Part shown: positions 892 to 50,200 of the stretch, piece after piece
How the letters are laid out: each line of letters starts with the position of its first letter
How positions within the stretch are numbered: position 1 is the first letter of the stretch
NCBI GenBank assembly: GCA_903813345.2
Contig: CAIIXF020000008.1
Coordinates: forward strand, 21,064,822-21,128,821
Source: Owenia fusiformis
Lineage: Eukaryota > Annelida > Polychaeta > Sabellida > Oweniidae
Direction: 5' to 3'
Length of the DNA stretch: 64,000 nt
Made by a program: the position numbers and the translations under genes
Notes under the pieces: model-generated
What the model saw: the letters and a program-made list of their open reading frames with translations, nothing else
Told to the model about the DNA's origin: nothing
Databases searched by the model: none

Positions 892-3800
892 ATGAAAATG
901 AGTGTAAATTCATTTTTTTCGAAATGCATGTTTTGTCAAAAAAGAAAATATAAAGGCAGCAGTACTCACAGGATTGAAGATGATAAATCTGGCCAAACTA
1001 TTAAGGATACAGCTGTGATGAGAAATGATGAAGCAATGATGTGCAGAGTCTTAGATGTTGATCTTGTCTACAATAAAGCTTGATATCATAGCAATTGCAG
1101 ATCAAGCTATGTTGCCAGAAGAAATCTGCAATTTTTGGGAGAGAAAGAAGAAGGAGAAGAAAATAAAGATATTCACAAAGGTTCGTTTGAAGAACTTTTA
1201 AAAGACATTAATCAGCGATTGATGAATGACAGTGAAGTATTCAAAATGACTGATCTAGTGAATAAATATCAATCATATCTCCCGGATGAGTCACATAGTT
1301 ATAGCTCCTCAAATTTATATAGAAAACTAAAGAAACATTACGGAGATGAAATAGTTATCCAAACAAGACAAGGCCAGGGCATGACTTCAATAGTCAGAGA
1401 AAGAGATGTAGATATTTTGAAAGCATTCAATAATTTGAAACTAGGAGAGAGGTCATTACAGAAAACACAATAATGTCAAATCTTCCAGATTCCACCATTA
1501 CTGAACACAAGCGAAAGTGTAGTGTTATAACACAAGGCCGTGGCATTGATAAGAGAAGAAGCTCAGATATACACAACCATCGATGTCTTTCCCAAAGTAG
1601 ACCAGATGAAAATGGACAAAGTTGAAGAAAATCTACCACGACTTCTTAAAACAATGATGCCCTGGCTTGCTGATCCAAAAACTCAAACTTTGAAATCAAA
1701 TGATTGCACCAACCATGTATTGAAGCGCAACGCTTTAACACTTGCTGAATGTCTCCTGTCAAACATGCGCAAAAGCAACATAACTCCATTTACTCTAGGC
1801 CTAGCTGTACAGCTACATCATACTTATGGCAGGAAGGAACTCATTCATAACCTGCATTCGCATTGATTTTGTGTGAGCTATGATACCTTACGCCGCTTCT
1901 CGACTGCCATAGTGCAGCATGAATCAGATCAAATGACAGATGGAGTGTATGTTCCACATATAAAACCAGTGTCAGATGGGGGAAATATTGTACATGAATG
2001 TGATGACAACATAGATATAAATGCGGAGACCATTGATGGAAAAAATTCCTTCCACTCAATGGCCAGGGTAGTATTTCAAGATCAAGATCCAAATGATGCT
2101 TTTGAACACATCACAATGAAAATAAATCCATCATCCGCAAGAGCCTTGGCTGTTGATGATAAGAAAAAGTCTGATCTGACTTTGCCTTTGCCATATACAA
2201 AGCCTATTACCCGACCAAGCCCTCCAAAATATCCAGAAGCCAAAGTTTCCATCAGAACAATGACAGAGAAATCAAACTATAATTCACTGTCATCTGATAT
2301 AGGGTGGATACTGCTACGCATGGGGTGCAGAGGAGCTTTGCCTATGGTAAATACTATTCATGCAGCTCAAATTATCCCTTTGTGGACTGGTTACAATCAC
2401 ATGGTCGCAGCAAAGGAACAAACTATCACTGCCACTGCTTATCCACCAATCATAGATGCCCCTCCTTCCAATATTGGAACGGTATTTACAACTATGACGA
2501 AAAGTAAGGAAATGATGAATTGGGCAGCCGTATACCATACAAACATTTGATCAACAGTTGTATAAGTTAGCCTTACAGGTTAAGTGAAATAAAGCAGAGT
2601 TTGAAAACAGCATTATTAGACTAAGTGGTTTTCACATGATGTGTTGTTTTATCTCTTGCATTGGAAAGATATGCGGTGACTCTGGGCTTAGGGATATCCT
2701 TGTCGAATCTGGAGTTAATGCAGCAAATACTGTAGATCAAATGCTACAGGGAAAGCAGTTCAAGAGGGCTTTACGGGGGATAGCACTGACATATGAAGCA
2801 GTGATGCAAACATTTCTTCTATCTTTCATTAAAAGGTGTGAGGAAAATGATAATGTATCTGAAATCTGGACTAATATTGATGATTGTGTCAATGCACATA
2901 CAGAGGGTGGTGAGGCGATGAAAACCTCCAGAAAAGAATTTGAGAAAGGGATCACAGATAAACTGCTTCCACAACTGAATGAATACAGAGAAATGGGGCT
3001 GCAACCAATCACCAACATTTACTTTTTGGACAATGTTCCTTGAAGCTTGTGAAACCTTTCTTGAAAACCTAAGAGCGGAAAGAGGTGGCGATTGGGATAT
3101 GCATCTTACAAGTGTGGCTAGGATGTTACCATACTCTTTTGGAGCAAACAAGACAAATTATGCCAGGTGGTCTCCAATCTACATCCTTGATATGATGAAC
3201 CTACCAGAAGCTGTTCAAAGTGCATCTGAAGAAGGAAAATTTTCCATCCGCAAAACAAGTCATGGTTTTAGTTTTAGGTCAGATATGGGGACATTAACCA
3301 CTGTAATTAAAGATGCAAAGGGAGATGGGGGCGGAGTTGATCTCACAAGCAAACCACAAACAATGATCAGATGGAGCCTAACTAGGCATATATTCAGCAG
3401 GATATCATCTACTTTTAAAGATAGATGCAGTGAATCTTCGAATGAGCACATGCCTCATCCACAAGAGTGCCATTCTAATTTGATGCGTGACGAAAATGAT
3501 GTCAAGCTCATCCAAGATCATATAGAGAACAGAATGACTAATCCATTTGATGTACATAGTCATCCTAATGTTCTCCTTAACATATCAACGGGTGTTTATG
3601 CAAGTGAAGATGTACAACATTCACTCTTATCTATTGTCAAATCTGGTTTGATGAAAATGTATCAGTTTGTATCCTCAGCTCTTGAGGAACAATCAACCAA
3701 TTTCTACCAGACGATAAAACAAAACAAACTTGTAACATTTTGTGACATGCACCCAAAGTCCAAGGTTAAAACAAGGACAGAGACTATGGCTGTTGCAATA

Positions 3801-4324
3801 GGTGCTGAAACCATCTTCCAAAGAGCATTAACAATTTGCAACAAAAGACCTCATGTCAACATAGATACTATGCTAGAACATCCAATTACCATAATCCCTC
3901 CTGCAATATTCCATGATGATGGAAGCATGAGGAAGAATGTCAAGTCAGACCTTGTCAAGGTTTTGCAAGTCAATCAAACGACTATTTTCCCTTCCTCTGA
4001 TCCAGATAACACATCATATATAATTGATGGAATGTGTGTTATACAGGCCATACGGGGAGACAAGTTCAACAACTTTTACCAAATTGGGCAACACTTCCTT
4101 AATTAAATCATATGCTGGCTCAGACTAGCTAGCACTGTGATACTGGTGTTTGATAGGTATGATAAGGCTGACTCTCCAAAGGCTGAAGAGAGAAAAAGGA
4201 GAAAAATGGCTGGGCATGAAAAGATATATCAGGTTAAATCAGAGAGAATGGTACCAGACTGGAGAAAATTTCTAAATGTTGATGACAACAAGGCCTGTAT
4301 TGTGGACTTCATCACAAATATGTT

Positions 4325-5374: not shown

Positions 5375-6905
5375 CTCATTCTCCGCAAATTTCCGTGCCA
5401 AATTCGATGCCAATGCCCGAAGACATAACTACTACCACCTTCACCTATGAATTCAGTGCCAATACCTGAAGTCATGACTACCACCATCTTTACCTATGAA
5501 TTCAGTGCCAATGCCTGAAGTCATGACTACCACTATCTTTACCCATGAATTCAGTGCCAATGCCTGGAGAAATAACTACCACCATCCTTACTTATGAATT
5601 CAGTGCCAATGCCTGAAGACATAACTGCCACCAGCTTTACCTACGAATTCAGTGCCAATGCCTGAAGACATTACTGCCAACATCTTGATATATCAATTCA
5701 GTGCCAATGCCTGAAGTCATGGCTTCCACCATCTTAACCTATGAATTCAGTGCCAATGCCTGAAGACATATCTGCCACCATCTTTACCTATGAATTCAGT
5801 GCCAATGCCTGAAGACGTAACTGCCAACATCTTAATATATGAATTCAGTGCCAATGCCTGAAGTCATGGCTTCCACCATCTTCACCTATGAATTCAGTGC
5901 CAATGCCTGAAGACATAACTGCCACCATCTTAACTTATGAATTCAGTGCCAATGCCTGAAGACATATCTGCCTCCATCTTTACCTATGAATTCAGTGCCA
6001 ATGCCTGGAGACATAACTGCTACCATCACTACCTATGAATTCAGTGCCAATGCCTGAAGACATATCTGCCACCATCTTTACCTATGAATTCAGTGCCAAT
6101 GCCTGAAGACATAACTACTACCATCTTTACCTATGAATTCGGTGCCAATGCCTGAAGACATAACTGCCACTATCATTACCTATGGATTCAGTGCCAATGC
6201 CTGAAGACATAACTTCTATCATCTCTCCTTATGAATTCAGTGCCAATGCCCCAAGACTTAACTGCTACCAGCTTTACCTATGAATTCAGTGCCAATGCCT
6301 GAAGACATAACTACCACCATCTTTTCAGTGCCAATGCCTGAATACATAACTACTACCATCTTTACCTATGAAATCACTACCAATGCCTGAAGTCATGACT
6401 ACCACCATCTTTACCTATGAATTCAGTGCCAATGCCTGAAGACATAACTACTACCATCTTCACCTATGAATTCAGTGCCAATGCCTGAAGACATATCTGC
6501 CACCATCTTTACCTATGAATTCAGTGCCAATGTCTGAAGACATAATTGCCACCATCTCTACCTATGAATTCAGTGCCAATACTTGAAGGCATATCTGCCA
6601 CCATCCCTACCTATGAATTCAGTGCCAATGCCTGAAGACATAATTGCTACCATCTTTACCTATGAATTAAGTGCCAATGCCTGAAGACGTAACTGCCACC
6701 ATCTTTACCTACGAATTCAGTGCCAATGCCTGAAGACATAACTGCCACCATCTTTACCTACAAATTCAGTGCAAATGCCCGAAGACATAACTACTACCAT
6801 CTCTACTTATGAATTCAGTGCCAATGCCTGAAGACATAACTGCCACCATCTTTACCTACAAATTCAGTGCCAATGCCTGAATACGTAACTGCCATCATTT
6901 TTACT
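5375..6905. repeat. 49-bp satellite array, about 30 copies
   Basis: Tandem units of 49 bp each contain GAATTCAGTGCCAATGCCTG followed by AAGACATAACTGCCACCATC and a short CTTTACCTAT tail. Period was checked from successive GAATTC positions (5448 and 5497). Most units keep the EcoRI site; one unit near 6320 is shortened. The unit length is not a multiple of three and every frame stops, so it is not coding. It abuts the 3' end of the decayed gene. Confidence 0.95.
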
Positions 6906-33000: not shown

Positions 33001-34080
33001 AAAAGGGTGTTATCACACATAAATTAAAGATAGTACGATGCTAAGTATATATCATGATGTGTGTTGCATTTCCATAGCTTTATGGTGCATAACCATTATC
33101 TCTGCATTACCATAGTTTAACACATTACCATGGTATTAGTTTAATGCATTATGGTAACCATGGATTCATGTTGCATTAGTAACTACTAGTATTTTCATAC
33201 TACCTTAGTCTCATGTAAGCATGTAGTTTTATGCATTATGGTAACCATGGATTCATGTTGCATTAGTTACTATATAGTTTCATACTACCTTGGTTTCATG
33301 TAAACATGTGGTTTTATGCATTATGGTAACCATGGATTCATGTTGCATTAGTAACTATATAGTTTCATACTACCTTGGTTTCATGTAAGCATGTAGTTTT
33401 ATGCATTATGGTAACCATGGATTCATGTTGCATTACCATAGTTTCATGCTGCATTCCCATCATACTAAGACTCCATATTAAATCTTTGTGTACTTTTCTG
33501 CTTTCAGAACAGTGTATGGGGAGTTGCTTACGAACTAGTGGGCCACGCTCAGATTGAGCAAGCCTTGAAGCATTGCAGCCATAGAGAGCTAGAACTTGGC
33601 GGATATATAGTGAAAATACAACCTTTCCAGATAAAGAACAGCACCAATGTGATTCCTGTTCTAGTGTATATGGCAACACCTGCCAATCAGCATTACTTAG
33701 GCCCCGCCTCTATTGACGCTCTTGCAGAGCAGGTAACCAACAGTGAAGGTCCAAGTGGACATAACATTGAATATGTTTGCCGATTGGCTGACTGGGCACG
33801 TCACGAATGCCCAGAGGAAAATGATCAGCATTTGCTCCAATTGGATGAAAAAATCAGACAGATTTGCCAGGAAAGGAAAATCTGTATGAGGACTGCTATG
33901 GGGCCGGACCCCACTCCTTTGAGCCAGTATCATCGTAAAAAATGCCACCAAGCTGAACGGTTGCGTGCTTCACTTATCATGGCATCACTGAAGCAGTCAC
34001 ATTATCGCAAACATAAAACTTTGCATATTGAGCAAAACTATGAAATCTCTAGCAAGACAATCTCCACAAATGCCAAGTAA
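30095..34080 (+). CDS. chac1: CHAC1-like glutathione-specific gamma-glutamylcyclotransferase
   Basis: ChaC enzymes cleave cytosolic glutathione to 5-oxoproline and Cys-Gly. Three exons join in frame at phase 0: 30095-30277, 30619-30654 and 33508-34080, giving 263 residues. Residues 20-25 are FGYGSL, the substrate-binding loop. RRFWQGNATHRGTPN and PGRVATLV (spanning exons 1 and 2) are family signatures. WGVAYEL follows, and RELELGGY supplies the expected catalytic glutamate at about residue 100. Three residues between that Glu and GGY match CHAC1 spacing rather than the shorter CHAC2. YLGPASIDALAEQV and GPSGHNIEYV continue the fold. The C-terminal tail of about 80 residues (basic, KQSHYRKHKT) is longer than in CHAC2 and has no motif I know. 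The start was chosen at the first ATG that gives the usual spacing to GYGSL. CHAC1 versus CHAC2 orthology is tentative. Confidence 0.92.
31358..31403. repeat. Second copy of the 46-bp CCAAT repeat, CHAC intron 2
   Basis: Identical over 46 bp to 29917-29962, which suggests a recent duplication, gene conversion or a young mobile repeat. Confidence 0.8.
31453..31692. repeat. Long intronic hairpin, arms about 112 bp
   Basis: The left arm (31453-31567) and right arm (about 31577-31692) are inverted with roughly ten to fifteen differences. Matching blocks include TTCAGGAAAGTA/TACTTTCCTGAA, CATTACATTGT/ACAATGTAATG and TAGTAAATCTGGTAA with its inverse TTACCAGATTTACTA. The loop is about 10 bases. It may be a palindromic MITE or a source of hairpin RNA in the CHAC transcript. 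Confidence 0.8.
31700..31840 (+). mobile_element. MITE-like element, GGTGGTGACATA family, copy 4
   Basis: Same start (TTGAAGTCAGTCTAAACAGT) and same end (ATAACAAAATGTCACCAC, TTTTTGATGGTGACATAA) as the copy at 8405, with a shorter GACGCC-type centre. It abuts the long hairpin. Confidence 0.75.
33146..33450. repeat. 85-bp tandem repeat, 3-4 copies, before CHAC exon 3
   Basis: Units begin GCATTATGGTAACCATGGAT at 33146, 33233, 33318 and 33403, a period of 85-87 bp. Each carries the palindrome GGTAACCATGG next to TTCATGTTGCATTA. The array ends about 60 bp before the exon 3 acceptor. Confidence 0.9.
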
Positions 34081-36329: not shown

Positions 36330-38115
36330 TTTATTAACGTCTCACGCCATATATAAAATAGTACAATAATGCAATATCAGTTAAAATCTTCGGCCCGGCC
36401 GGTGTCGACCTATGGGAGACTTAAAATCATAATAATCACTTGTTAAAAGTTTTTGATTATTAAATTAAAGAACGCCTTTTTAAAAGCATATTAATCAGTG
36501 TCTTTGACAATGTCCTTTGTAACATTGGTGTAGTCATAATAGAGCAAAACTGTTGAATATAATTAAAAGTGTGAAAATCTGGAATTTCCTCAAGGCATTT
36601 CAGAAACAATGGAGTTCTAAGTTCATCATAAGAATTGCACTGTAGAAGAAAGTGTATCTCGTCTTCAACAGTGTGATTGTCACAGTGACATCGACGATCC
36701 TGGAGTGGGGTATTGTGATAACGTCCAGTTTCAACCTTCAATGGGAGTGTTCCGCCTCTAAGTTGGGCAATTGCTTTGCGTTCGCTCCTTGACATGTTAA
36801 TGCAAGTATAATGGGCGGGTTCCACAGAGTGTGTTTTAAACAGTCTATATGTTCGTAATTTGTTGCCATTAATTGGGTTATTTCTATCGTCCCAAAGACT
36901 GTTGTGCCATTCGACGTGATCTGCCCGTGTGCACGCTTCTTTGACCTCGTGGAGATGGAGTTTAACTCGAGAAATAGTTTCATTGTCGGTGAGCTGAGGG
37001 AAGTCCAAATCTTGTAACATTTTCAGCGTGAGATTTTCCCAAGATTTACGATATCGGCAAGACCATTTAGATATATGCTTCGGTGTCCTATATGTAGCCA
37101 TGTTTTTTAATCGACACCAGAGTCTAGTCACCTCGACTCTCTGTTTGGTAAATACTGATGTCCAGCAGATATCTCCTTTGGTTGATCCATTTGGTGCTGT
37201 ACGTCCAACACCGAGAAAATATCGCGCCGCTTTGTTTTGAACTGCATTCAATTCAGAGTATTGTCGAGTGCCCCAAATACCGGCACCATATAACATAATA
37301 GGGGAAACAAGGGTGTCAAAAAGTTTCGTGAATACAGCATAAGGTAGTCCACCCTTTACATTTGTTTTTGCAATTAACATTCCTAAGGCACGATTTGCCG
37401 ATTTTGCAAGTATTTTAACAGTTTGTCGCATGTCCAGATGTTCATTTAATGTAAGTCCTAAATAACGATATTCCGAAACATATTCTAGACGATTAGATGG
37501 TCCAAATGTGAATATATGATTACTCCTGGCATGAGATTGCGATCTAAAATGGACGATTTTTGTTTTTGTTGTGTTAAGTGTCATTCTCCATGTATTACAC
37601 CACTCGTAAAGTTTATTCAGCATATGTTGTAAATCATTAGCAGTTGGGGCAACAAGTGCGACGTCATCTGCATACATGAAAATGCCAATGTTTTTTCCGT
37701 CTATGTCTACTCCTTTGTTGAGAGCGTTAATCGCCGTTTCCAGATCGTTTATATATATAGAAAATAACGTCGGAGAAATCGAACAGCCTTGTTTGACTCC
37801 CTTGGATATGTCAAAACAATGTGTGAGTCTACCATTAACACGAACTGTATATTGTACATCTTGGTAGAGAGACATAATAGCGTGGTATATTTTGCCTTTG
37901 ATACCGGTCTTCTGGAGCTTATAAAACAGGCACGTGCGATTGATATTGTCGAATGCACGTTTTGCGTCCACGAAACAGATGTACGTATCCTGTTTGGCTG
38001 TCTTCCTATTATTGATTATCGAATATATACTGTAGAGATGGTCCTGACAACTGCGATCCGTACCACACGATTTCATACCATAAGTCAAAGGCTTCCTTCT
38101 CAAAGAGTAGGTCAC
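36330..38115 (-). mobile_element. 5'-truncated non-LTR retrotransposon with reverse transcriptase ORF
   Basis: The minus-strand ORF 38115-36460 (551 codons) encodes reverse transcriptase from palm region onward: FVDAKRAFDNI, GVKQGCSISPTLFSIYIND, MYADDVALVAP (the catalytic YADD) and the thumb block KIVHFRS...YRYLGLTLN. A C-terminal zinc-binding module follows (CHCDNHTVEDEIHFLLQC), as in many LINE ORF2 proteins. The endonuclease and RT fingers are absent, so the copy is 5'-truncated near 38100, typical of target-primed reverse transcription. Past the stop, the 3' end becomes (ACAT)n-like tetranucleotides at about 36306-36330, a common LINE tail. The ORF is otherwise open, so the insertion is fairly young. 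Clade (Jockey, CR1/L2 or RTE-like) cannot be fixed by eye. Confidence 0.92.
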
Positions 38116-38730
38116 AACCCCAACTTATTGTACTGTGATAAAACAACACAAAATACATTAGGTAAATAATGTAAAATCTTGACCTGAATCATGGACTTGA
38201 TGATAATAAACCCCTGACTTGATCATATAGTATATTCCTACTTTTAGACATTTAAGGAACATAGGCAACCAAAAATGTATATCAAACAATTATTTACAAA
38301 GTAGACTTCATGTTCATGGAGAATTATGCTGGACATACATGTAATGAACTTTTGCAAAAGTACACTGAATCATTGTGTTTGAGCATTATATTGTTTTTAT
38401 TGTCAGATTTTTGGGTATTTCGGATCCCACAAAGATTGAGTTTGAATGCCAATTACAAGGGTATTAGAGGCACAAAACAGGCAAGGTTATTGCCTCAACC
38501 AAATTTGACATAAAATTATGATCACGCATGTTCTTTAACTGAAACTATGAAAATAAAGTTCATTGATACTATGACAGTATATCCCATCTGGCTAAAGGTG
38601 CCTCATCCATCTGATTAATTGTAATACTTAGTTAAATATCCTAGCTACACCCTTGTTTATATTTTGTTCAAGTTCTGTTTAGTACACTAATATAGCATAC
38701 ATACAACATAAATACTGCACATGTGTTGAT
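38116..38730. other. AT-rich spacer, no gene seen
   Basis: No repeats or coding signal recognised. Confidence 0.4.
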
Positions 38731-40788: not shown

Positions 40789-41255
40789 GCTGATGTCAGA
40801 TTAGCATTTGACATCATCACCTTGTTATATACAAGGCATCACCTAATAGAAGTTTTGCATGAGTTAAATGGAAATGTGCAAGGAATGATCTGAAAGCAAT
40901 TTTCCATTACTAATGGAAATAGACAAGGTATAATCTGATAGTAATATTCCATTAGTAATGGGAATCCTAGCTTTGAGAACGACAAATTCATGAATTCCAT
41001 AATTCTACAATCTAACATGTACAATCTTATGTTTAATTTGACAATATGCATTTTAATGCAACTTATGAATAATACGCTTAATGATGTACAACCTGAGCTA
41101 TCATGTCTGAGACATTAGTTCTTACATTTAATAAAAGTTTATATCATTCAAAAAAGCTGTCAAACTTATTGTATATTATTCCTTTTTTCAATTTTTAAGA
41201 TATTAGTTAAGTGCAGCCATATTGGCCAATCCAAAGTTCTAGCAAAAATCCCCTC

Positions 41256-44200
41256 TTAAAACAGTGGATGCTCTATATATTCACCTTGTAAGCTATAGCC
41301 ATATGCAGCATAAGCAGCTTCTTTTGCTGCTTGTTTCCCTGCAATCTCAGCAGCTGATATGGCTTTACGTAAACTGCCTCTCCCTCTAGGTCGACGTCCC
41401 CCTCCAGTTGGAGTTTTCTTGCCACGGCCCCTTGCTAAACCCCCTCGCTTGGTGGGTGGTGGTGTACTGCTTGTGTCACCTATTGCAAAAAAATAGTTCT
41501 TTTACATACATGAGAGCGAGAGGACACATCTCTACACAAACATGACAATGCTAAACAGGACAATGACAGTATAGCACTTTCCAAGAATCTAATGACCAAC
41601 AAAGGAGAGTATATTTCAATACAGAAGAGGCAGATTAATATTAGATTATATAAATTATTGGACTTAAACGAACTCTTTCACTAAAATTCCATGAATTGAC
41701 CCCTCTTCAGCCATTCATTAATTTATCCTTAAATTGTACAGTTCAATTGTACAGGCAACTCGACAATTTAAGAGTGAGTACAAAATGTATACCTGTGAAG
41801 GCAGCTTGGTCATCAACAATTAGCATTCCATCATTACTATCCTCATCTCCTACTAAACTAAAGCTGGCATGCTCACCACCCAATGACTTCTGGAATACAA
41901 AAGTGACACATTCAATACAATTACGTAACATGAACAGTAAGTAATTCATCATTTCTGTCCTCATCTCCTAAACTAAAGCTGGCATGCTCACCACCCAATG
42001 ACTTCTGGAATACAAAAGTGACACATTCAATACAATTACGTAACATGAACAGTAAGTAATTCATCATTTCTGTCCTCATCTCCTAAACTAAAGCTGGCAT
42101 GCTCACCACCCAATGACTTCTGGAATACAGAAAGTGACACATTCAATACAATTACGTAACATGAACAGTAAGTAATTCATCATTTCTGTCTCATCTAGGC
42201 CCAAAGTATTCATCATTTCTGTCTCATCTAGGCCCAAAGTATTCATCATTTCTGTCTCATCTAGGCCCAAAGTATTCATCATTTCTGTCTCATCTCCTAA
42301 ACTAAAGCTAGCATGCTCACCACCTAATGACTTCTGGAATACAAAAAGTAACACATTCAATACAATTATGTAACATGAACAGTAAGTAATTCATCATTTC
42401 TGTCCTCATCTAGGCCCAAAGTATTCATCATTTCTGTCTCATCTAGGCCCAAAGTATTCATCATTTCTGTCTCATCTAGGCCCAAAGTATTCATCATTTC
42501 TGTCTCATCTAGGCCCAAAGTATTCATCATTTCTGTCTCATCTCCTAAACTAAAGCTAGCATGCTCACCACCTAATGACTTCTGGAATACAAAATGTAAC
42601 ACATTCAATACAATTATGTAACATGAACAGTAAGTAATTCATCATCTAGGGACACAGTATTCATCATTTCTGTCTCATCTAGGCCCAAAGTATTCATCAT
42701 TTCTGTCTCATCTAGGCCCAAAGTATTCATCATTTCTGTCTCATCTAGGCCCACAGTATTCATCATTTCTATCTCATCTTGGCCCACATTCTCCACTCAC
42801 AGACATTTGAAATGCATAATGACACATTTAATACAGTTGGTGATACACCCTTTAACATCATCTAATTCAATAAAACAACAAAATGACTCTGAAATACTCA
42901 CCACACTCTGAGGACTGGCTGCAGCTGAGCTTGACTCATAGTTAAAGATGGATGGTTCCCCCTGAGAGGATAAGGTAGTGTTAGAGGCACTGTTGGCTAT
43001 AGCAGTCTCCTCAGTTGGTTGTTTCCTCTTACGTCCTGGCTTGTTCTTTGGTAGTAATACACCAGATTTCTTCAAGCAAACAAACTGTTTTAGGGCGCAA
43101 TTCATAAGAATTCTAGACATATTGGTCAAGCTGAGTTACAGACTGTCATGTTAAAGTTGAACATCATTAAGGAATAGAACGTATAACATAATGCAAAATG
43201 TCACCACCTGTCATTTGTTACAGATGCCAAACACTGAACACAAACTGCTGAATTCTAAACACCATCCACAAAAAGATGGAGTATAGAGCAATTATGTCAC
43301 CAGTTGTGGTGGTGAATAATAAAGTGATAATATAAAATTGTCTTGTTCTCCTTTTGTTGCAATACTTAATATTTGATCAGTGTCACAATGTACCTTATTC
43401 AACAGAAATAGTAGTACTGGAAATCTGATTTCTTTAAAGATCGTTACCTTTGCATGATATTGCTCTCGTTTACGCATACGATCTTTCGCTTTTAATTGTT
43501 CCTCTTTCTGCTTCCGATCAGCATCTTTCTGTTTCACTAAATAAAATAAAACAAAAATTCAAATAATATAATTAATTTCATCCAATATTTTATTTTGAGA
43601 AAATTACCAGGTATAATTCATTTGATTAGAAAGGTATCAGATTAAAACTATCTTGTTTACAAAATAGAGCTTTAACAACCCATCCACTAAAGTAAGGGAC
43701 TATGTTTAGAATTAAGAAACAAAATTTCTTGTGAGACAATGCCATACCTTTTGTTGTGAGTTCCTCCTCTTCCAACAGTAGGGAAACCACCTCCTTTGCC
43801 TTGAGAACATCTGGCTTGAAATTCTCTCCACTGATTACCATACGCTGGATCTACATAAGAAAATGAACTTGAGTAATTCTACCTATAGCCTATTATAGCT
43901 AAAAGCACAGAACATCCTTGTTTGCATTCTTCCATGATAAAACAATATAAAGTTGAACATATGCCATTAACTAAACATTTACCTCACTCTTCTCCTTAGC
44001 CCTCTCTAAGATCCTCATCTCTATGCTTCCCTTTGTGATGAGCCTGTACACAGTGACCTGCTTCGTCTGCCCGAGTCTGTGGGCCCTGTCCATGGCCTGC
44101 TGGTCAACTGTAGGGTTCCAGTCACTATCATAAAATATCACCTTCAAAAAAGAAAAGAGAATGAGTATAATATAAATATTTATTGGTTCATGAAAATTTG

Positions 44201-47200
44201 ATTTGAAGTTATAATCAGATAAAGTTCATAGATAGTCTTAGTTGTTAGCCCATTTTATGTGAATAAAATTCAGGACTTTTGCATGGTGCATTATGTGAAC
44301 CATTATAAGCATCAAAGGAGATATGCATTCAAAGCTTATAAGGGTGACATAAATTTGAATCTGGATACAGTTCTTCAATGAGTTTAACTCCAGTAAAACC
44401 TGTATAAGTGGAATTCATCTGGTTCCTCAAAAGTATTCCACTTGGATTTTGGGAGGTGTATCACTTACAGAGGTTTATTTTACATTAAAGGCAGAATCAG
44501 ATCTATAGGGGGTGACAAAATTACATGCAACGTGCATAATTGACCTACCAATCTATTCCTTACAATATCAAATACATTATCTCCCAAAAGTTTGACAATA
44601 TGTTATAAATTGGTGAAGTTATGAATGATTCAAAGTGCAAAAATGGGTGAAAATGTTTAAATTCTCCCAAATAATAAGAATGGTAACCATTCTTATAGAA
44701 AAATAATACATTATTGTAAAAATCTTTCGTTTTCCTTAAATAAAGTATGCACTTTTGTGATTTTTAGAAAATAGACATGACAAGGAATGACATGAGCCAA
44801 AAATATTCTAAAATTGAAACAATTTTTTGTTTAGCCTGCTCGCTATCTCTGATTCTCTCTTTAAGTTCATGGGTAGCAGGATTTTAAATGGAGTTCAACT
44901 TATGGAGGTGTTCCACTTTCAGTGGTGTTCCACCTTCAGAGGTGTTCCACTTGGTAGGCTTTACTATGCAGTACTTACAGTGTCCGCAGCAGTGAGGTTG
45001 ATCCCCAGTCCCCCAGCACGTGTACTAAGCAGGAACACAAATATGTCACTCTTGGTCTGGAAGTCCTCTACCATGTCACGCCTATCTGAAATCTTAGAGG
45101 AGCCATCTAACCGCATGTACTTGTGCTTTCTGTGCCACATATACTCCTGGAATATACAAATACAAAATATGGTATTTATTTTAACAAGGTTTGCTTATAT
45201 TAATTCAACCCTGATGAAGAGTCCTGGATATCATTCTGAAACATGTAAATACAAGGCATTAACATGCAAAATGTCACCACCTGCCATTTGTTACAGATGC
45301 AAACTGCCGAATGCCAAATGTCCATTGAACACTAACAGCCAAACATTAATCGCTGAACATCATCCACAAAAAAGTTGGAGACTCTAACAATTTGACTCTA
45401 ACAGACTTTGTTTAAATGCTAACAATTTGATTAAGATTATTGCACTAGAAAGAGACTAAATCTCTGAATGTACTACTTTGAATTCCACTGAATGAATTCC
45501 AAAGTTGCAAATATTCAAAACTGAAATGAACTGTTATGTCAAAGAGCTGTACCTCTAGCAGATCTATCATCCGGGTCATCTGTGAGTATATAAGCACTCT
45601 ATGTCCCTCTGCCTTGAGTCTTGCAAGTAAACTATCCAGCACTTCAAGCTTCCCTGCATCTCTGATCAGGGTTTCTTTATCTGAAAGAGATATAATAATC
45701 ATACAGTGTTCTAAATTATAAGACTTCATTTACAGTAAAAACACTCTTAAACACCTGTACCAGCGGAAAACTAAGAGACAAGGTACAAATTTGGATAAGG
45801 CTAATACTAACTTCAATTTTAGCATTCTACACAACTTTAATACATCTTCCTCATCAGATTGAAACTTATTTTGTTTGATAATAAAATAAACATTTCTTCC
45901 CTTATAATTTTGATATACAAGTTCCAACAAAAACCTTTTAAACAAACATTATAATAAATTGTAAAATAAGCATACCTGGTATGAGTACATTAGAGAAGCC
46001 ATGTTTGGGATGGATACCATAAAAGCCTCCAGGCTGTGTGGGTGAGAAGTACCAGGAAGACCATCGCACCTGAAAAGCAAATAGAAATATAAGATCAAGT
46101 TATCAAATTAAACTGTGAACAAAATTGAGAGTGTACATTAAAACATTCTGATAGAATGGATGATAAGGAGTATAACAAAGATTTCAGAGGGCCTGGTTAG
46201 AACTAAATTACAAGGCACTAACACGCAAAATGTCACTACCTGCCATTTGTTACAAAAACTGAATGCCCAACTCTATCGCCAATCACTGAACTCCGACCAC
46301 TCCGGTGGTGGTGACATAATGAACGACAGCATTTACCATCTTGACAATAGTTAATCACTGGACATTCTTCAGGCAAGCGTATAGTACATATATTGCACAT
46401 TGCTATAAATACATGTCGTATTAAATGCCTACCTGCTCTGCAATCTCGGTGGAGCCATACATGAGACTATCATGGGCAGACTTAGTACCACACAGATTGT
46501 CACGTTGACGCTCCCACTCTGCCATACGATCATCACAGTACCAACTGATATCCTTGCAGAATGCCTAGAAATAAACACAAACAAGATTATAACATATTAT
46601 GAGGTTATATAATGGTTGATTCCGTATATCGTGTTTATACTCAAGTGAGTATATGATATATTCACGAGTGACTGTAGGAAACGAGTGAATACGAGGGGTG
46701 ATCAATAAGTAATGGACGCTTTTTTACACAGATACTTTTTATGGACCAATACCTTCGATTTTCTTACCAGTGATACATCGTTCAATTATCTATCAACTCT
46801 GAAGATTTGAAAATAAGACATGTAATATATTTTGCTATATCTTTATTTCCATGAAGGAGGTATAGGTACCCCGGGACCGACATTTAAGTCAAACATTCTG
46901 AAGCTATTTTAGCTTGTTTAACATGCAACGCAGTTGAATGCAGGTTGACAAAACAAACCATTGTGGTCATGAATTACCCCATTATGTTATGCCACAGTTG
47001 ATTTTGAATATTTTATCATCACTTTGTGGTATATTCATGCCAATTCATTCTACAGGGCCCTCTACATAGGTTCCATCAAGTGCTACATGTACACAATTCC
47101 TCATCCTCTAACTCAAGATTGTGAGACAAGGCTGAATCCATTTTCTGACATGGTAGCAAGATGCAGTTGTACGGGTTGTTTTATTTCATCAATGTCAATA

Positions 47201-50200
47201 AATCTACGTCCCTTCTGTATAGAAATAAGTACTATAAGAATAAATAAGTCACATGTGGGCAGATCTGGACAAAATGGTGCATTGGCCAAGGGCTCAATTT
47301 TGAGGTCCAGGGATATTGTTTTCTGAACATTTTGAGATCTGTGGGCAGGTGCATTGTCCATATGGAGTAGGGTGTTCCCTTCTCCCACCAACTCATTCTT
47401 CCACAATGCTTCCTCAAATTCCTGCAAACCCCGACCATACAACACTGACATCACAATACTTAATGTTTGTGTGTTACCCGTCAGCAAAATATTTCAAACA
47501 ACACAACACTTGTTGCTTGTAAAAAAAGTTCAAATCTAACTGAAATTTGCCAAACTGGCAAAAAACTGAAAATGTGACATAAATGTCGGTCCCGGGGTAC
47601 CTGTACCCCCTTCACGGAAATAAGGATATATCAACATGTATTATATATTTTGTCTTCAAATCTTAAGATTTGATAGATAATTGAATGATGTATCACTGGT
47701 AGGAAAATCAAAGGGATTGGTCAATAAAAAGTATCTGTGTAAAAAAGCGTCCATTACTTATTGATCACCCCTCGTATATCATATACTCACGAGAGTATAA
47801 CGATATACAGAATCAACCATTATATGATCTTATTATCCCAACCTCATATTTAATCAATAAAAGGTTAATCTAAATTCAGCAGTTGTATATCAAGTCAAAG
47901 AGTCGTATACGCTGCCCAGGAGTTGTATACGCTATCCAGGAGTTGTATATCGTTCTCAAGAGTTGTATACGATGAGTGTTGGTTTTATATTGCAGTTATA
48001 CAATGCTATTATACAATCATATAAAGCACTTAGGGTGGGATAAATTCGTATATATCATGTCAGTCTCTCCAACATTTGGGTCATAATGTACCATCCAATA
48101 TCCTTAAAAGATTAGGACAAAGCCTTCATAATGTATCTCTATTTTCAATCCCGTCAGTGTCAGACGGAACAAAGTATAATTTAGGGTAACTGGTCAACTG
48201 GTCCCCAAGACAACTCGTTCTCAAGTCAACTGGTCCCCACCTTTGTTTTATTTTAAATCAAGTATTGAACTGGAAATGGGTAGAGATATACATTATAATT
48301 GCTCCATATTGTTTAGAATAGTTTGAAGAATGTAAAAGAGTTTTGGCAAGAATTTTTCTGTTACCACATTCAGTGAATAAACTATGACTAAATCTATGAC
48401 TAAAATGACTAACCTTAGGTATAGTATAGTAGAGGAATGCTGGTATATATGTTGGCATGAGATCTAGTACTTTAGGAGATCGAGGTGTATGTACATGTTC
48501 AGGGACTAGGGGATTCTCATCTTGGTTGGCACCAGGATTTGAAGCTTTCTGAAAGACATAATATATTTGGAATACTGAGTGGATGCACTTTATTCATTAT
48601 ATTTATCATCCAACGACAGAATATCTATAAAATACAAGAACACAAATGTGTACAATATGTCCCCACCTATGGGTGATCCTGTCAAATGGTTATCCTAAAA
48701 ATGAGTAGACAAGACTTTACCGACACAATTCGAGGACGGAGAATCCAAAATGGGCACCTTAAAATTTACCAAGAATGCCAAAAAATTAGTCAGTTCTAGA
48801 TTTTCATACTAAGAACCACCCCTGAAAATTTGAAATTGATCCGTCACACAGTTAACCAGAAAACATGTAAACAAGACTTTACAGACAAGATTTGAGGACA
48901 GAAAATCCAAAATGGCTGCCTTGACATTTATCCAGAATGCCAAAAACTAATCTGTTCTAGATTTTCATACTAAGAATCATCCCTGAAAATTTGAAATTGA
49001 TCTACCAAACAGTTCACCTGGAAATGTGTAGACAAGACTTTACGGACAAGATTTTAGGACAGAAAATCCAAAATGGCTGCCTTGACATTTACCAAGAATG
49101 CCCAAAAACTAATCAGTTCTAGATTTTCATACTAAGAATCATCCCTGAAAATTTGAAATTGATCTACCAAACGGTTCACCTGAAAACGTGTAGACAAGAC
49201 TTTACGGGCAAGATTTTAAAACGGAAAATCCAAAATGCTGCCTTGACATTTATCCAGAATGCCGTAAAAATAATCAGATCTAGATTTTCATACTGAGAAT
49301 CATCCTTGAAAATTTGAAATGGATCTACCAAATGGTTCATCTGAAAATGCGTAGACAAGACTTTACAGACAAGATTTTAGGACGGAAAATCCAAAATGGC
49401 TGCCTTGACATTTACCCAGAATGCCCAAAAACTAATCAGATCTAGATTCTCATACTAAGAATCATCCCTGAAAATTTGAAATTGATCTACCAAACGGTTC
49501 ACCTGAAAATGAGTAGACAAGACTTTACAGACAAGATTTTAGGACGGAAAAATCCAAAATGGCCGACAATAAAAAAGTGATTATGAGTTTTTGCTGAAAT
49601 CTTTTTTCAAAATTATCACATATAACTACTGTTAACAATAACATAAGCTTTTACAACAAAGTACACCTGAAATTATTTATAAAGCTACTAAAAAGTTAAA
49701 GTATGAAAACTGAAAAACACCATTCAATATGATACAAAGTATTATCGTGCGCTAACTTTTCTTAAAACATTCAAAATGGCTGACATGACTGAGCTAACAG
49801 GTCCAAAACCTAATCAGATCTAGAATGAAGTGAGCTGAACAAGATGTTAAAGTTTTAAAAGCAACTGTGAAGCCGTTTTTCTTGAAGTTTGCAGACAAGG
49901 ATTTTAGCATTTGACTTCAAAATGGCCGACAGGAAGTAGGTATCGAGTTAATTTTTTTTCATCCACATCTGTATGCACTCATAAGTTATCCCTGAAAATT
50001 TGAAGGTGATATCTGTAGCGGTTTTGGAGAAAACTGCCGGACGTACGGACGGACAGACAGACGGACGCGCCTAGGCCGACAATATGGCCCCACACTATGT
50101 GGTGGGGACATAACAAAATTGATGTCCATACTATCTAATATTTACTCAAATGGACAATATTTGTGAAATCTATAAGTGAGTGAAACTTTCTTTAAGGATT

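Follow-up and report, generated by a model that had tools for sequence, protein, structure and literature searches.

The window, that is the whole stretch of 64,000 nucleotides of DNA analysed here, carries an animal-type INO80 gene on its minus strand, and one intron region of this gene holds a tandem array in which the edge of the following exon is repeated. Translation of the minus strand with stops written as X gave matches to INO80 ATPases in all three frames for positions 64000-54001 and in two of the three frames for positions 54000-41201, the third frame of the latter segment being without matches. Sequence matches over the helicase and the C-terminal region place the product among the INO80 ATPases: one frame matched 6hts_G at E=9.9e-130, and the spliced C-terminal part of 218 aa aligned with human INO80 at E=9.5e-25 (6hts_G) and 5.7e-22 (7zi4_G). 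The identity of the gene proposed in a first-pass annotation of this DNA is thus confirmed. The same annotation had chosen one exon downstream of the array as the genuine one (Table 1). This choice was sound, since the exon aligns with human INO80 DESSSDMLVIVDD, to which 8 of the 13 residues of its motif are identical. The next exon finishes the split codon of the genuine exon and then reads GDTSSTPPP..., and translation of the exons joined with the genuine exon skipped revealed a shifted frame and an early stop.

Table 1. Positions within the window of the INO80 exons and of the elements of the intronic array
Feature	Position	Strand	Description
INO80 exon upstream of the array	42902-43069	minus	168 nt, end phase 0, donor GTG/GTGAGT
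Unit 0	42582-42869	minus	decayed; acceptor-homologous site CAA; four 33-mers, the first at 42778, followed by intron-end sequence as in the other units
Unit 1	42334-42581	minus	248 bp; four 33-mers; ATAATT replaces GTAATT; reads to a stop
Unit 2	42120-42333	minus	214 bp; four 33-mer cores (three full units and a hybrid)
Unit 3	42005-42119	minus	115 bp, identical to unit 4
Unit 4	41890-42004	minus	115 bp; exon-start copy with the 3' end of the intron; poor, out-of-phase GT after 80 nt
33-bp minisatellite cores (n=12)	42163-42778	minus	three blocks, starting at 42778, 42542 and 42294
Genuine exon	41793-41889	minus	97 nt, phase 0 to 1, 32 residues, donor CAG/GTATAC
Internal donor-like GTG/GTGAGC	41871-41879 (GT starts at 41876)	minus	13 nt into the genuine exon
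Next INO80 exon	41285-41479	minus	195 nt; human INO80 alignment up to residues 1482-1483

The acceptor TATTCCAG followed by the exon start AAGTCATT is present five times on the minus strand of this INO80 intron region, with first exonic bases at 42581, 42333, 42119 and 42004 for four copies and at 41889 for the genuine exon. A 24-mer covering the acceptor and the exon start found 5 matches in the whole window (at most 3 mismatches) against 0.00 expected, in agreement with the four exon-start copies with their own acceptors, upstream of 41889, that had been reported before, and units 1 to 4 fit the tandem amplification within the intron that had been put forward with them. Units 1 and 2 are longer than units 3 and 4 because of a 33-bp minisatellite, and unit 2 counts 178 nt from its exon start to GTAATT, which gives it the phase of the genuine exon. 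The fifth unit, previously described as partial, is indeed present but more complete than this description implied: its segment 42869-42760 aligns with the proximal units at a score of 73, which 0 of 2000 shuffles attained. Once the 33-mers are removed the score is 57, again attained by 0 of 2000 shuffles, and the best of 180 control segments taken from 43.2-54 kb scored 37. The CAG of its acceptor has decayed to CAA. An unbroken run of 162 identical nt is common to unit 4 and the genuine exon, 125 nt of it upstream of the exon and 37 within it, and units 1 and 2 show 1 difference in the 223 nt compared; together with the identity of units 3 and 4, these values point to a recent exchange. Over their first 36 nt, the distal copies differ from the genuine exon at 2 positions only, both of them third codon positions and synonymous, a pattern explicable by conversion from a selected genuine exon and also by coding use. 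An inverted-repeat pair (41032-41056 and 42807-42831, 80% over 25 nt) was set aside as a probable chance occurrence in AT-rich DNA.

The start of the exon is copied, as the first-pass annotation had it, but not the start alone, since a diverged homology to the exon runs some 28 nt further. Once the 37 identical nt are passed, 21 of 28 nt in the copies still agree with the genuine exon. Shuffled sequence did as well in 2 of 2000 cases, and elsewhere on the minus strand, away from the array, 0 of 62,771 positions reached 21, a count that is somewhat flattering since the 28-nt stretch was picked from the alignment. When a fixed length of 39 nt is compared, the 21 matches obtained are reached by 2 of 5000 shuffles and at 38 of 62,760 other minus-strand positions, and as other positions attain 22-23 matches, this comparison is significant only with the position given beforehand. 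The 28-nt match rules out that the copies hold the exon start only. A codon alignment of 36 nt between the copies and the genuine exon shows 8 differences, distributed 2:2:4 by codon position (third-position excess P=0.26), and 5 of the 12 residues are changed in the copies. Among the 8 motif residues common to the genuine exon and human INO80, the copies keep 4 and lose 4. Signs of coding constraint are missing from the 3' half of the copies, with the reservation that 36 nt make a small sample.

The core of the 33-bp unit (23 letters) matches 12 times with at most 3 mismatches over the whole window, always within 42173-42778, against 0.00 expected; the minisatellite is present in three units (0, 1 and 2), no core was found elsewhere in the window at this tolerance, and exact matches to the 23-letter core were absent from the viral contigs searched. 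The 33-mer codes for an 11-residue unit in the frame of the exon, which is its sole open sense frame, and the in-frame minisatellite announced by the first-pass annotation stands. The 33-mer (GATGAGACAG, read as DETEMM) differs from the exon-like GATGAGGACAG (DEDRND) by the absence of one G. In MINISATELLITE, GATGAGACAGAAATGATGAAT is one G short of the exon-like GATGAGGACAGAAATGATGAAT; units 3 and 4 contain the latter, as does the end of unit 1. With this G missing, DETEMM corresponds to a shifted frame of DEDRND, and had the 33-mer been selected to form an acidic tail, a frame shift at its origin would be surprising. Minisatellites derived from exons are a general known kind. The INO80 repeat resembles them by its relation to a coding sequence and by its period, a multiple of three, and differs from them by its intronic position and by its one-base shift relative to the exon-like sequence. 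A period that is a multiple of three is shared by 12 of the 32 TRF rows of the window, some of which overlap, and since the 33-mer has a single open sense frame, its match with the frame of the exon is about a 1-in-3 event; taken together, these two properties make the in-frame state roughly a 1-in-9 coincidence. The 33-bp period was for these reasons rejected as a proof of selection.

Merged by hand, the 32 TRF rows correspond to 23 separate arrays, which occupy 8.7% of the bases of the window and 10 of which are at least 100 bp long. Tandem duplication being common in the window, it is unsurprising that one array overlaps the edge of an exon. The longest array is a 49-bp minisatellite of about 31 copies (5401-6904), and another one, with a period of 162 bp and 5.4 copies, lies within a large INO80 intron (48683-49563). 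An 85-bp tandem array on the plus strand (33137-33460) lies directly upstream of, and ends within about 50 bp of, a ChaC-like exon starting near 33508, whose product we take to belong to the gamma-glutamylcyclotransferase family; it represents a second intronic array close to the acceptor of an exon. The window also contains, on the minus strand, an ORF with a reverse transcriptase domain (36463-38121; PF00078, E=1e-29), probably a non-LTR retrotransposon, and a transposase-like fragment located in an INO80 intron (47116-47490; PF13358 DDE_3, E=0.0041, not reaching the curated cut-off). Several long open frames are found on the plus strand at 1867-4106, and those at 1867-2547 and 2979-4103 gave no Pfam match at E 0.01.

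Splice sites were scored with a model built on 13 donors and 11 acceptors from the INO80 gene alone, hand-picked from the human INO80 alignments, and the background scores were taken from the minus strand of the window only (3614 GTs and 3452 AGs). In a model built without the genuine acceptor, the four copy acceptors reach 7.35-8.56, within the top 2% of the 3452 AGs, and the genuine acceptor itself 8.56; including the latter in the model inflates the scores of all five (9.66-14.5). These four extra acceptors repeat the splice site of the neighbouring exon, as do the units of a VNTR bearing a splice site. The donor at the end of the copies, TTAC/GTAATT, scores 1.39, a value equalled or exceeded by 39% of the 3614 minus-strand GTs, and falls below all of the 13 real INO80 donors, each scored while left out (2.63-10.15). 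The donor of the genuine exon scores 6.77 in the model and 4.91 when left out (8.1% of GTs as high). The weakest real donor has a score of 2.63, a level reached by 23.8% of GTs, so that a low score does not exclude the use of TTAC/GTAATT. The GT is absent from units 0 and 1. Concerning the claims made previously on these sites, the length of 80 nt attributed to the proximal copies is right, but their donor-like GT is a poor donor; the distal copies were said to have lost the donor, which is correct at 42581 (ATAATT), whereas the copy at 42333 keeps GTAATT. From the GT at the end of a copy to the next acceptor there are 35-36 nt. In most animals, introns have to be longer than 35 nt. A minimum intron length is required for canonical splicing, as stated in PMC5435141.

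Another donor-like site, GTG/GTGAGC, which the first-pass annotation had not reported, lies within the genuine exon (Table 1) and is also found in the copies at 42568, 42320, 42106 and 41991. Its score of 7.95 is in the top 1.5% of GTs and above that of the genuine exon's own donor in the same model (6.77). If the site at 41876 were used, 28 residues would be deleted in frame, the motif shared with human among them. Judged by their scores, the copies offer neither a usable donor each, as mutually exclusive exons would, the strong internal donor delimiting a 13-nt exon only, nor the two usable splice sites of a poison exon, the acceptors being good and the distal donors poor or absent.

The closest known kind is the intronic VNTR that carries a splice site, as in ABCA7. 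According to PMC5954066, the VNTR in intron 18 of ABCA7 has a 25-bp unit and includes the donor of exon 18, and its length correlates with the skipping of exon 19. Both arrays are tandem, lie at an exon-intron border and include the splice site of the adjacent exon. In ABCA7, however, it is a donor that lies in the array, which has been shown to vary in length and correlates with exon 19 skipping, whereas in INO80 the acceptor and the exon start are copied and the array is known from the sequence of one assembly. The INO80 array also resembles the tandem exon duplications and mutually exclusive clusters treated in PMC9741552 and PMC9013439 in having homologous exon copies in tandem within one intron, with the first 37 nt identical in unit 4. 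Unlike mutually exclusive clusters, its copies have a poor distal donor or none, are mostly in the wrong phase and have lost half of the residues shared with human. PMC9741552 presents functional substitutions of tandem exons in human as rare events, ancient for the most part, whereas the INO80 array is freshly exchanged; according to PMC9013439, tandemly duplicated exons are abundant and some unannotated ones are possibly expressed. A literature search combining INO80 with “tandem exon duplication” found no paper in the collection covered, and no title on an INO80 exon array appeared among the matches listed in broader INO80 searches.

Several alternatives to a neutral origin of the array deserve consideration. 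That the array or its copy number was misassembled from a simpler repeat is extremely improbable: the identity of units 3 and 4 and the near identity of units 1 and 2 would fit an artefact of this type, but unit 0, the pair 1/2 and the pair 3/4 differ in diagnostic substitutions and in the 33-mers they contain, and one of the units has decayed. Misassembly does not make differences of this kind, though the copy number could be off by one or two. The mutually exclusive exons suggested in the first-pass annotation are disfavoured by the poor distal donor and by the wrong phase or missing GT of 3 of the 4 copies: a GT and the phase suitable for replacing the genuine exon are combined in unit 2 only (178 nt), the copies of 80, 80 and 212 nt being unfit. 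Unit 2 has a good acceptor (8.14) and an open frame that continues into the next exon; swapped for the genuine exon as a mutually exclusive or alternative exon, it would insert 13 residues, three 11-residue repeats and 13 residues, giving an INO80 with a repeat segment. A too short gap between neighbouring exons is known elsewhere to prevent their joint inclusion, a mechanism limited to clusters of two in PMC6071210. Such a use of unit 2 is nonetheless very unlikely, given the score of its GT, its 3' end coding for MMNYLLFML, unlike the conserved motif, and the stop that would follow its splicing to the genuine exon. Such a stop arose in every combination of a copy with the genuine exon that was tried, whether through the internal donor of the four copies or through the GTAATT of three. 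It is also highly improbable that the copies serve as poison or alternative terminal exons, the inclusion of which would end translation and lower or truncate INO80. Splicing of the 80-nt copies to the next exon would indeed lead to an immediate stop (...DELLTVHVT), and read-through leads to a stop from all four copy acceptors, but it does so from the genuine exon too, and the stop in the copies is therefore not telling. Of these two proposals of the first-pass annotation, poison exons are unsupported as they depend on the same poor donor, and so are terminal exons, AATAAA being absent from 42901-41480 and the sole ATTAAA (42832) being upstream of all four copies.

A regulatory role is unlikely as well. 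The copies could act as competing acceptors, or GTG/GTGAGC could delimit a 13-nt in-frame microexon or serve as an alternative 5' splice site, the length of the array then tuning the acidic-motif content of INO80. The good copy acceptors, the strong internal donor found in all five sites and the conservation of the frame are in line with this possibility: a 13-nt microexon, whichever unit it came from, would keep the frame and give a 13-residue sequence, and so would use of this donor in the genuine exon. ABCA7 offers a precedent, with an intronic VNTR containing a donor and a length correlated with exon skipping (PMC5954066). Against it stands the very small size of a 13-nt exon, and the site need not relate to the array, as the genuine exon carries the same GTG/GTGAGC. 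Very small exons of this size usually need special enhancers. An extended form of this idea, in which the array would operate as a length-variable splicing rheostat, is decidedly unlikely; the repeated acceptors and the internal donor would then produce in-frame INO80 isoforms either devoid of the conserved acidic motif (KSLGG-DTSS) or bearing the repeat of unit 2 instead, and the tail of the remodeller would vary between individuals.

We thus consider it likely that the locus is an intronic tandem-repeat array which has captured the edge of an exon, and prefer this neutral reading over the functional ones. Among the possibilities offered by the first-pass annotation, unselected duplications are the best fit to the poor donor, the gap of 35-36 nt and the mostly wrong phase of the copies. 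An old tandem duplication would have copied the exon together with its flanking intron, after which the 3' half and the donor of the copy would have decayed. Unequal exchange or conversion would later have multiplied the unit composed of the intron end, the acceptor and the exon start, and would have kept the copies identical to the first 37 nt of the genuine exon and to the preceding intron, while a one-base slip followed by slippage may have generated the 33-bp minisatellite in the distal units. This order of events is suggested by the patchwork of the array, which points to an old duplication and then to a recent exchange. As a real donor stands at the 3' end of the genuine exon alone, the spliceosome should pair the upstream donor with the genuine acceptor, and the copies would be at most decoy acceptors with small effects. 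The array may be tolerated because its copies are hard to complete as exons, their donor being poor or absent and the next acceptor 35-36 nt away, and we infer from these features that it probably evolves without selection. Three observations speak against the neutral reading: the differences restricted to synonymous positions, the strong internal donor that preserves the frame and the right phase of unit 2, the last two of which the first-pass annotation had not pointed out.

If the array is what we propose, it would represent a snapshot of an exon edge caught in intronic repeats, in which an old unit in decay, an exon half that has diverged and units of recent exchange are found together. 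The INO80 fragment tested in the cited work covers residues 487-1556 and is wider than the exon 41889-41793. Should it be true that any of the copies is spliced in, the length of a minisatellite would be tied to the tail of a chromatin remodeller.
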